From: Candidatus Saccharimonadota bacterium
GTDB lineage: Bacteria > Patescibacteriota > Saccharimonadia > Saccharimonadales > Saccharimonadaceae
Assembly: GCA_017480095.1 (NCBI GenBank)
Contig: JAFVBG010000003.1
Coordinates: 124,001 to 188,000, forward strand
DNA: 64,000 nucleotides
Reading direction: 5' to 3'
Position numbers and translations under genes: made by a program. Shown here piece after piece: positions 37,679 to 60,075 of this stretch. The first letter of the stretch is position 1, and the number at the start of each line of letters is the position of its first letter. The notes beneath the pieces were generated by a model. That model made no database searches. It was not told the origin of the DNA and worked only from the letters and a program-made list of their open reading frames with translations.

Positions 37679-38992
37679 CTATAACTCTTCTACCTTTACC
37701 CTCTTCTGCTCGGCCGTATCTCTATCACGGATAGTGACAGTGCCATCTTCCAAAGTATCGAAGTCAATCACCACGCAGTGTGGCGTGCCGATTTCGTCTT
37801 GTTTGCGGTAGCGTTTACCGATATTCCCAGAATCGTCCCAAGTCACATTACCATACTTTTTGCGGAGCAAACCGTAAACCTCACGTGCCTTCTCAACTAG
37901 CTCAGACTTATTCTTGAGTAGTGGCGAGACACAGAAGCGATATGGCGCCAAGTTTTCAGACAGCTTCAAAACCGTGCGTGGCTTGCCATCAATTTCATCT
38001 TCCGTATAAGCGGAAGCCAAAACCGCAAGCAGTAAACGCTCAACACCAATCGAAGGTTCAATCACGTGCGGCACAAAACTCTCACCAGTATTTTTATCAC
38101 GATACTCCTGAGATTTGCCGGAGTTTTTCGCAATATTGCTGAGGTCGAAATCGGTGCGGTAGGCGATACCCATCAGCTCCTCGCGGCCATTCGGATAGTC
38201 GAACTCAAGGTCAATCGTGCGCTTAGAATAATGCGCGCGGTCTTCGACTGGGACTTCGTAATCGTGAAGCTTCTCGGCTGGCAGGCCTAATACATCAATC
38301 AGGAAATGATGATACTCCTCGCTCAGCTTCTCAAAATGCTCTTCCCAAGTATCTGGATGGACAAAATACTCAATCTCCATCTGAGAGCACTCGCGGTCGC
38401 GGAGGATAAAATCGCGCGGAGAAATCTCGTTGCGGAAGGCTTTACCTTGCTGGGCCAAACCAAACGGTAAATCTGGGTAAATCGTATCGACGACGTTCTT
38501 GAAATTCGTGAAAATCCCCTGTGCTGTCTCTGGGCGGAGATAAGCGATAGACGAGCCATCATCCACCGGGCCGACGTTCATCTTGAACATCATGTTGAAT
38601 TTCTTAATTTCGGACCAGCTCTGCTTGCCACAAGTTGGACACTTCGGATTAGCCTTTAAGAAATCTTCGGTCGAGATGGACTCGTTTGCTCCTTCGACCA
38701 GTTTGTCGGCACGGAAACGGCCATGGCACTCTTTGCACTCGACGAGCGGATCATTAAAGGTATCAACGTGTCCAGAAGCTTCCCAAGTCTTTGGGTTCAT
38801 GATAATCGCAGCGTCGATACCATACATATCATCGCGACCATCGACCCAATAACTCCACCAGGTGTTCATTAGATTACGTTTCAACATGACGCCAAGCGGA
38901 CCAAAATCCCAAGTGCCGGCCATGCCGCCATAAATATCAGAGCCGGGGAAGATGAAACCGCGGCGCTTGCAAAGACTTACAATATTTTCCAT
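37679..38992 (-). CDS. glyS: Glycyl-tRNA synthetase, alpha2 (eukaryote/archaeal-like) type
   Basis: Charges tRNA-Gly. 437 residues. Class II motifs: YGGMAGTWDFGPLGVMLKRN at the N-terminus, motif 2 around FRNEISPRDFILRDRECSQ with the preceding YLRPETAQGIF, and motif 3 in IEPSIGVERLLLAVL. A zinc-type pair VECKECHGR/CPTCGK lies in the insertion. The C-terminal anticodon-binding domain runs from LAPYRFCVSPLL. Start placed at 38992 because TATAAT is 7 nt upstream (leaderless); longer in-frame extensions read through that promoter and the structured element and are not credible. Confidence 0.95.
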   Translation of the reverse strand: MENIVSLCKRRGFIFPGSDIYGGMAGTWDFGPLGVMLKRNLMNTWWSYWVDGRDDMYGIDAAIIMNPKTWEASGHVDTFNDPLVECKECHGRFRADKLVEGANESISTEDFLKANPKCPTCGKQSWSEIKKFNMMFKMNVGPVDDGSSIAYLRPETAQGIFTNFKNVVDTIYPDLPFGLAQQGKAFRNEISPRDFILRDRECSQMEIEYFVHPDTWEEHFEKLSEEYHHFLIDVLGLPAEKLHDYEVPVEDRAHYSKRTIDLEFDYPNGREELMGIAYRTDFDLSNIAKNSGKSQEYRDKNTGESFVPHVIEPSIGVERLLLAVLASAYTEDEIDGKPRTVLKLSENLAPYRFCVSPLLKNKSELVEKAREVYGLLRKKYGNVTWDDSGNIGKRYRKQDEIGTPHCVVIDFDTLEDGTVTIRDRDTAEQKRVKVEEL

Positions 38993-38999
38993 GCCACTT

Positions 39000-39028
39000 A
39001 TTATACCATAAAAACAGAAGTTTATAAA
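39000..39028 (-). promoter_or_regulatory. glyS promoter, overlapping a structured element
   Basis: On the minus strand TTTATA (39023-39028), 17-nt spacer and TATAAT (39000-39005), 7 nt before the ATG. The -35 box lies inside the closing helix (39016-39029) of the structured element, and the spacer contains its U-run. Confidence 0.65.
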
Positions 39029-39209
39029 AGTTATTTTCCAGACACGTGTCCGTCCAGCCCATCTCAAGAGACGGCTACTTCTCACTCAAAGATGAAAATG
39101 TAAACATTTTCGCCTTTTCGTCTCGTCGTGCCGTCGCCATGGGTGGACGGCACTACTACTCGCGCTGCCGCGCTCCGTACTGTCTGGAGAAATAATTTTA
39201 TAAACTTCT
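39016..39209 (-). ncRNA. Structured RNA element, copy A (terminator-promoter insulator type)
   Basis: Read on the minus strand. An outer 14-bp perfect helix (39196-39209 with 39016-39029) includes the last codons of recO. It is followed by a second helix TTATTT/AAATAA, then CCAGACA/TGTCTGG (39181-39187 with 39038-39044). Inside, P2 is GCGC-GGCA-GCGC, then the conserved joining strand GAGTAGTAGTGC. P3 is CCGTCCA..CCCAT with ATGGG..TGGACGG, bearing a long branched tip. T5 follows the outer helix. Copy B at 59397 has the same core and fold with different helix sequences. Confidence 0.7.
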
Positions 39210-39866
39210 TGCAACTGGTATAATATCAGGTAGCAAATCCTGGTAGCCTTTGATTTTTGCGCAATCTTTTAGGGGTAAGACGTGCAATAGGCGAAGGAAC
39301 TTGATGTGATTGGCGGCAATCTGACCGTTTGGGCTAGGGTGTAAGACCATCTCCATTGGGTCCCAAGTATAAGTTTGGTCTCCTACGAGTTTAGCGCCAG
39401 TATTATCAAACATCAGGTTTAATTCGTTTCCCTTTTCGTGCTCCAGATTGAGTGTGAACCAAGTATGGGCAAGTTCAAGGTTGGCTTCTGCCGAATCGAG
39501 GTAAGCTAGAATTTGGCTTAAGATGGAGAAATAGGCTTCAGACTCAGTATCGCGCGAGGCGCGTTCGATGGCTTTTAGGGCGTTTGAGGCAAGTTCGAGC
39601 TTATTTAAGTTCTCTAGAATGTGACGGTAGAACTTCTGCATCTTGGCGGAAGTCAGCGTGTAGCGTCCAGTTTTTACGGAGTGATGAACCTGAATCTCGG
39701 AGATAGAAAAGAGTTCGACCCCGCCCGCGAGGCGAGATTTTTCTTTGCGCACGGCTTTGGCGAGAGCGGAAATGCGACCGCTAGGGGTGAGGAAGTCGAT
39801 TAGGCGGTCGGCCTCGCCGAGGTTGGTGCGGCGTAGGACGATAGCGCGCGTTTTAACGTCGTCCAT
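39198..39866 (-). CDS. recO: DNA repair protein RecO
   Basis: Loads RecA on SSB-coated ssDNA with RecR in gap repair. 222 residues, near family length. The N-terminal OB-fold carries RAIVLRRTNLGEADRLIDFLTP, and ALAKAVRKEKSRLAGGVELF is the typical family stretch. The helical C-terminal half has no zinc-finger cysteines. The ATG lies 14 nt before the end of the upstream response-regulator gene, so translation is coupled. The last codons form part of the outer helix of structured element A. Confidence 0.93.
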   Translation of the reverse strand: MDDVKTRAIVLRRTNLGEADRLIDFLTPSGRISALAKAVRKEKSRLAGGVELFSISEIQVHHSVKTGRYTLTSAKMQKFYRHILENLNKLELASNALKAIERASRDTESEAYFSILSQILAYLDSAEANLELAHTWFTLNLEHEKGNELNLMFDNTGAKLVGDQTYTWDPMEMVLHPSPNGQIAANHIKFLRLLHVLPLKDCAKIKGYQDLLPDIIPVARSL

Positions 39867-58901: not shown

Positions 58902-59333
58902 TTAGCCTTCGACGGTGACGCCCATAGAGCGAGCAGTACCAGCGACGACTTTGACGGCGCCATCGAGGTCGATAGCGTTCATCTGTTTCATTTTGACTTT
59001 GGCAATCTCTTCAAGCTGAGCACGAGTGATTTTACCAACTTTGTCAACATTTGGCTTGCCAGAGCCTTTTTGAATCTTGATCGCCTCGCGAATCAAATCA
59101 TCTACTGGCTGACCAAGGCAGGTCCAATCAAAAGTGCGATCTTCATAAACCTTGATGTGAACGATGACGTTCTTACCCATGAATTCCTTCGTCGCTTCGT
59201 TGAACGGGTTAATGAAGTCCATCATGTTGAGACCCCACTGACCGAGAGTCGAACCGACTGGAGGACCAGCGGTGGCTTTGCCACCAGGGATGCGCAACTT
59301 AAGGTTGCCGATTACTTTTTTAGTTTGTGCCAT
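58902..59333 (-). CDS. rplK: Ribosomal protein L11
   Basis: 143 residues. KVIGNLKLRIPGGKATAGPP, then GSTLGQWGLNMMDFINPFNEAT and the rRNA-binding C-terminal domain ending ARSMGVTVEG. Located at the GTPase-associated centre. AGAGGA precedes the ATG. It is transcribed alone, between structured element B and the terminator at 58863. Confidence 0.97.
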   Translation of the reverse strand: MAQTKKVIGNLKLRIPGGKATAGPPVGSTLGQWGLNMMDFINPFNEATKEFMGKNVIVHIKVYEDRTFDWTCLGQPVDDLIREAIKIQKGSGKPNVDKVGKITRAQLEEIAKVKMKQMNAIDLDGAVKVVAGTARSMGVTVEG

Positions 59334-59370: not shown

Positions 59371-59399
59371 ATTATATCACACTGAAATAGAAAAAGCAA
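59371..59399 (-). promoter_or_regulatory. rplK promoter, overlapping structured element B
   Basis: TTGCTT (59394-59399, minus), 17-nt spacer, TATAAT (59371-59376). The -35 box overlaps the closing helix and U-run of element B. Confidence 0.75.
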
Positions 59400-59515
59400 G
59401 TATCAGCATTTTTCCAGACACGCGTCGAAAACCCCTGTCGCTGTCGCCACAGGGGTTTTCGCACTACTACTCGCCTTGCCAGGCTCCGTACTGTCTGGAG
59501 AAAATGTGATACTTG
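59397..59515 (-). ncRNA. Structured RNA element, copy B (terminator-promoter insulator type)
   Basis: Minus strand. The outer helix CAAGTATCA/TGATACTTG (59507-59515 with 59397-59405) continues through CATTTT/AAAATG and CCAGACA/TGTCTGG (59492-59498 with 59414-59420). P2 is GCCT-GGCA-AGGC, then GAGTAGTAGTGC. P3 is GAAAACCCCTGT/ACAGGGGTTTTC with a GGCGACAGCG loop. GCTTTTT follows. It shares core, loop and layout with copy A at 39016, with compensating base changes in each helix. Situated between nusG and rplK. Confidence 0.75.
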
Positions 59516-59526
59516 TTTTTTCTGCT

Positions 59527-60075
59527 TTAGCTGATCTTTTTAACCTGTAGCGCATCGAGCTCGACAGGTGTTTCACGACCGAACATTGAGACCATAACCT
59601 TGAGTTTGCCTTTGACGCTATCAATCTCAGAGATAGCACCTTCGAAGCCTTTGAATGGGCCATCGATGATGGAGACGATTTCGCCCAGAGCGTAGTTGAT
59701 GGAGAATTTTGGATCTTCCACGCCCATGCGCTTCTTAATCTTCTCGATTTCTTTCTCGGAAACTGGGGTTGGCTGAGTGCCGTTGCCGATGAAGCCGGTG
59801 ACGCCTGGGGTGTTGCGGATGATGTACCAAGTCTCATCTGATAGCTTCATATCTACTAGCACATAGCCAGCAAAAATCTTGCGGTCAATCACCTTGCGCT
59901 TGCCGTTTTTAATCTCGATTTGCTTCTCTTTTGGTACGAGGGCGCCAAAAATCTTGCCCTTCATCGCCTCGCTATCGACACGCTGATTAATGCTGTCGGC
60001 GACTTTGTCTTCGTGACCAGAGTAGGTACTGATTGTGTACCAAGCCCTAGTGTCATCATAACGGTTTACTGCCAT
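59527..60075 (-). CDS. nusG: Transcription termination/antitermination factor NusG
   Basis: 182 residues. The NGN domain (ARAWYTISTYSGHEDKVADS-like start, RKIFAGYVLVDMKLSDETWY, NTPGVTGFIG) is joined to a C-terminal KOW domain (ALGEIVSIIDGPFKGFEGAI). It binds RNA polymerase clamp and links it to Rho or ribosomal S10. Co-transcribed with secE, 12 nt downstream. Followed by structured element B rather than directly by rplK. Confidence 0.96.
   Translation of the reverse strand: MAVNRYDDTRAWYTISTYSGHEDKVADSINQRVDSEAMKGKIFGALVPKEKQIEIKNGKRKVIDRKIFAGYVLVDMKLSDETWYIIRNTPGVTGFIGNGTQPTPVSEKEIEKIKKRMGVEDPKFSINYALGEIVSIIDGPFKGFEGAISEIDSVKGKLKVMVSMFGRETPVELDALQVKKIS

Follow-up and report, generated by a model that had tools for sequence, protein, structure and literature searches.

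In-frame palindromic elements are known mainly from Rickettsia and Wolbachia. The Rickettsia palindromic elements (RPEs), about 105–150 bp in size, are located between genes and also fused in-frame in many conserved genes (PMC2229807, PMC10969869). These elements possess terminal inverted repeats, and their repeat identity is eroded with time (PMC2229807, PMC6649704). In the mitochondria of Nematomorpha, locus-specific inverted repeats are found in protein genes with both arms coding, and template switching has been proposed (PMC6649704). The byp elements of Magnusiomyces mitochondria are palindromic and transcribed, but not translated (PMC6649704).

Here we describe a family of palindromes in Saccharibacteria, two copies of which (A and B) lie in the 64,000-nucleotide stretch of DNA analysed (the window). 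We consider that they are probably copies of a mobile palindromic DNA element, one that is non-autonomous and restricted to its lineage. Like RPEs and their Wolbachia counterparts, the element fits the 105–150 bp range and is both intergenic and coding, with in-frame insertions in unrelated conserved genes (lepA, ileS and trmD by comparison with orthologues, others by eye). Unlike RPEs, it belongs to a different phylum (Saccharibacteria/Patescibacteria) and is characterized by a covarying three-way-junction core, arms that are particular to each locus, both orientations within genes, a strand bias and core inversion. Family-conserved terminal inverted repeats of ~12 bp are absent, the outer arms differing at every site (mean identity between copies 0.29), and for this reason we liken the element to RPEs by description and do not file it among them. 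It shares with the coding palindromes of Nematomorpha the locus-specific complementary arms inside protein genes; those, however, are perfect repeats in animal mitochondria, whereas a conserved structured core is repeated genome-wide here. These two systems are the best comparisons, and the element behaves like an RPE. In-frame palindromes thus appear to recur in another phylum, in an apparently unrelated, structurally conserved family in small genomes, where the hosts of coding copies include translation factors and aminoacyl-tRNA synthetases. Orthologous sites in their various states (filled, empty, decayed or inverted) offer a natural record with which to test how coding palindromes insert and persist.

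Copy A (39016..39209, minus strand; covariance-model match G000:C5:163106) is a complete element, with arms and core, located between recO (39198..39866, upstream; named in the original prediction and by synteny in relatives) and glyS (37679..38992, downstream, with its ATG start at 38992), both open reading frames on the minus strand. Its outer helix is a perfect 14-bp duplex, AGAAGTTTATAAAA/TTTTATAAACTTCT, in which 39209–39196 pair with 39029–39016. Inside this helix, TTATTT/AAATAA and then CCAGACA/TGTCTGG close a three-way junction. The 5′ arm (39190..39209, minus strand) takes in the final codons and the stop of recO; its inverse complement forms the 3′ arm (39016..39036, minus strand). 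The core (39038..39189, minus strand), as delimited by folding and alignment, is composed of P1 (CCAGACA/TGTCTGG), a helix TAC/GTA, P2 (GCGC-GGCA-GCGC, with a GGCA loop), the joining strand GAGTAGTAGTGC and a long, branched P3. The helices, the junction and P2 are all present as the original prediction had drawn them, and the minimum free energy is −88.3, compared with −51.5 on average for shuffled sequences (z −8.1). The long branched tip ascribed to P3 is also there, but looks like a nested insert: a palindrome of ~60 nt (GACGAGACGAAAAGGCGAAAATG..., 39069..39137, limits approximate, minus strand) that recurs in the P3 tip of the G000:C5:233950 copy but is otherwise absent from the 651 kb of this genome that was checked, taken in stretches. 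A CTCC/GGAG hairpin proposed as a switch shows no conservation across the family. A T5 run (39014–39010) follows copy A, and TTTATA (39028–39023) in the 3′ arm, upstream of TATAAT, forms a promoter-like −35 for glyS, the hexamer being a consensus match only; the sequence here agrees with the U5 run and the −35 inside the closing helix that had been described.

Copy B (about 59391..59522, minus strand; covariance-model match G000:C5:183409) lies between nusG (59527..60075, upstream) and rplK (58902..59333, downstream), both again minus-strand open reading frames. Folding places a locus-specific 5′ arm at 59493..59522 and a 3′ arm at 59391..59419 (both minus strand), the latter ending in a terminator-like T-run. 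The fold is as marked as that of copy A relative to shuffled sequences (−71.4 versus a mean of −34.8, z −9.4). Folding and sequence agree that copy B has the core of copy A in other helix sequences, as had been claimed; the window contains two exact occurrences of an 18-nt core word, compared with an expectation of 0.01 with up to three mismatches. Each of the two copies is a long hairpin followed by a T-run, and for this reason could serve as a terminator. Terminator-like and promoter-abutting behaviour is plausible for intergenic copies only, and looks like a by-product of the landing site.

The core, ~75 nt of an element of ~130–150 nt, folds into a three-way junction whose unpaired bases are conserved and whose helices covary. 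In 45 aligned matches, 315 double-change cells were counted, compared with 104 in shuffled alignments and a maximum of 54 when the partners were slid; in 88 aligned matches (some copies being common to both sets) the numbers were 492, 154 and a maximum of 83. The alignments were fitted to the model structure, so these counts favour it. The preservation of base pairing by compensating changes, part of the original prediction, is borne out in both sets. Covariation can come from selection for RNA folding, selection for DNA folding or template-switch correction of hairpins, and therefore covariation alone is no proof of RNA.

A pattern search identified nine genuine copies in the 813-kb genome from which the window comes. 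A covariance model (R1) built from seven aligned copies of those nine found 13 confident copies there, and matched 52 of 60 sampled genomes of the same genus, with 1–23 copies each. In a class-wide scan with R1 (295 genomes, 128 genera), matches were confined to three genera: 59 of 75 same-genus genomes and five genomes from two sister genera. No copy was detected in approximately one-sixth to one-fifth of the genomes of the genus. Among the matches listed for a short pattern, named records are nearly all Candidatus Saccharibacteria, many of them from ruminant gut and including Ca. Nanosyncoccus alces; the few matches to other phyla in that list look like chance, and none of the named ones is from Rickettsiales. 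The exact core of the type found here has no match in viral contigs. A single viral match to the family pattern, inside a phage ORF and with the fold absent, was set aside as chance. Rfam covariance models, at gathering and relaxed thresholds, matched a tRNA alone in the window, and their matches to the loci of five copies were all far under gathering scores. The prediction of a new structured family, to be sought in relatives by covariance model and compared with Rfam, holds on each count: there are further copies in related genomes, compensatory changes and no Rfam family match. Searches of open-access literature turned up no description of elements of this kind in Saccharibacteria. As judged from these sequences, the family is spread within one genus of gut Saccharibacteria (TM7), between genes and, from the predicted translations, in-frame inside essential protein genes.

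Individual sites are variably occupied. At both recO–glyS and nusG–rplK, several relatives keep the gene order without the element, and others hold a different palindromic core. Pairwise comparison revealed filled/empty pairs (L121/L294 and L212/L169) and one pair of species, L133/L046, with the same site and arms but an inverted core, in flanks about 94% identical. Less favourably for a mobile element, no relative of this genome exceeds 76% identity at glyS, and a clean single-copy insertion with defined ends was seen in none of the very close genome pairs. Two 'empty' sites, in trmD (L377) and ileS (G025, L095), contain short palindromes (GAGAATTT-ACAAA-AAATTCTC and GATTC-TCCT-GAATC, respectively), and may be excision scars rather than ancestral sites.

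Many copies are located inside protein genes. Among 146 distinct copies, a set slightly diluted by the few chance short-pattern matches from other bacteria that it includes, 85 lie within an ORF that reads without interruption across the element and has 60 or more codons on either side of it (fewer where a contig end cuts). The same fraction of random windows lies in open ORFs (426/730). By contrast, only 12 of 292 frame-shifted controls, in which one or two bases of the element were deleted, are still open. The 85 copies are divided between sense (46) and antisense (39) orientations. Their translations place insertions in genes resembling lepA, tsaD, dus, leuS, polA, trmD, tatD and others, named by eye except that lepA, ileS and trmD were compared with orthologues. 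The lepA linker preceding RALIFDS varies between genomes, being short in some and containing the element or related palindromes in others; among 30 loci sampled (second half not found in three, a run of N in one), the insertions are in-frame wherever the gene is unsplit. All 30 ileS loci and all 30 trmD loci examined are in-frame, filled or not. At six loci (L061, L063, L065, L068, L079 and L081), lepA is split in two at the palindrome linker; a phosphoglycerate-mutase-like ORF (in L079, an aquaporin-like ORF) lies between the halves, the second of which has an apparent new ATG.

Hairpin inserts in conserved genes could also be an intervening RNA, spliced out or bypassed in translation and missing from the final protein, and the palindromic, transcribed and untranslated elements of Magnusiomyces are a precedent (PMC6649704). 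The Saccharibacteria element resembles the byp hairpins in that palindromes interrupt protein genes. Unlike byp elements, which the ribosome skips, it leaves the reading frame open, at all ileS and trmD loci and in unsplit lepA insertions, and the frame-shifted control closes it. This counts against splicing or bypass, because a spliced or skipped insert needs no open frame, and makes that explanation highly improbable.

The same coding copies bear on the view of the original prediction that the element is a structured regulatory RNA or insulator, which terminates one transcript and abuts the promoter of the next. The high stability of its fold, the conservation of its core and its compensatory changes favour that view, as do the T-run past copy A, the promoter-like −35 in its arm and the position of intergenic copies between a gene end and a promoter. 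However, more than half of the copies are in-frame in ORFs, in both orientations, rather than ending a transcription unit. The fixed place between genes implied by the prediction does not hold either: the two sites in the window are unoccupied in relatives, and orientation follows GC skew (below) rather than genes. Accordingly, copies did not display the conserved position and orientation relative to genes by which we tested for a cis-regulatory element. For these reasons we regard a regulatory RNA or insulator as improbable.

The orientation of the element was compared with the GC skew of its flanks, which is negative, read in element orientation, for 114 of 143 copies (114:29, binomial p 4e-13; copies from one genome are not independent). 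The bias persists when gene direction is accounted for by regression (intercept −0.079, t = −7.3), and the skew is negative in 30 of 45 sense-inserted copies taken alone. Thus, the element prefers the C-rich strand, independently of gene direction. GC skew usually marks replication strands. If it does so here, where it serves only as a proxy for leading and lagging strands, the negative values would indicate a lagging-strand preference, as expected for an element moving as single-stranded DNA. A strong strand bias, together with a conserved structured core found in most same-genus genomes, might also be displayed by a host DNA structure with a role in replication, segregation or the nucleoid, its strand orientation being selected and its copies dispersed by recombination. 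Against this stand the variable copy number (1–23), the same-genus genomes that have no copy, the interior of essential genes as an odd place for a host site, and the related but different palindromic cores held by the same loops. A host structure therefore appears improbable too.

Strand bias is a trait of single-strand-dependent elements. Hairpin and bias together suit a non-autonomous element of REP/RAYT type, or of group II/retron type, mobilised by a known class of enzyme. As with REP sequences, the repeats are small, dispersed and palindromic. Unlike them, they are larger, branched and inside genes, and a Y1 (PF01797)/RAYT transposase was found in only 2 of 60 same-genus genomes, being absent from the other 58, this genome included, and is not supported as the mobiliser. 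Reverse transcriptases are present in 26 of 40 same-genus genomes, but five element-rich genomes, each >95% complete and with 9–14 copies (G003, G004, G018, G026 and G036), gave no match, and this candidate is likewise unsupported. An enzyme acting in trans or since lost is possible, and overall we consider mobilisation by one of these known classes unlikely. The RVT_1 ORFs, mostly about 350–490 aa and 1–4 per genome (G000:C5:87060 and C5:1891 in this genome), are possibly diversity-generating retroelements.

The arms provide a further clue to how the proposed mobile element may spread. In 139 of 146 copies, the complementarity of the flanks exceeds the 99th percentile for mismatched partners. 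Arm pairing stays near 0.9 up to about 28–30 nt from the CGGAG word and then drops, and arm ends peak at 30–35 nt. In orthologous trmD copies (L375, L396 and L399), both arms carry matching changes. A test of whether, in trmD, the second (right) arm is a copy of strictly conserved native (left) codons gave no significant result, and overlap between short segments flaws the empty-site null that it used. We also considered, and rejected, insertion into terminator hairpins already in place, which could account for the arms of intergenic copies but not for those within coding loops. We infer that the arms may originate when a flank is copied by snap-back or template switching.

In the mechanism that we propose, the element would spread in the form of a folded single strand, most probably at replication forks and on the lagging strand there, with the three-way junction recognised by a host or mobile enzyme. 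Snap-back copying of flanking DNA would create the arms, and the same template switching would keep them complementary. In-frame coding copies would survive because they sit in tolerant loops and are translated, and intergenic copies such as A and B would double as transcription terminators. We advance only tentatively the idea that this constitutes a new class of mobile element, in which a single strand folded into a three-way junction would travel on the lagging strand and make its own flanking inverted repeat from copied target DNA, giving locus-specific palindromes that can be translated inside essential genes.

In lepA, ileS and trmD, the same loops also harbour palindromic cores that are related to, but distinct from, that of the main element. 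A second core family (GACGACGGGAGC...CCCCGTAACGACGGGCGCGACGAAGCG) is found in ileS (L089, L094 and L097), at nusG–rplK (L308) and in lepA (L067); its arms are also locus-specific, and it has a tip, CCCGTAACGACGGG, similar to that of P3 in the main family. A third core (GACTTGGCCAGAGCG...CCCGGAGCGTGTCC and variants) is present in ileS (L091 and L103), in trmD (L381 and L387) and upstream of glyS (L272), occupying the same loops and intergenic sites as the main element.
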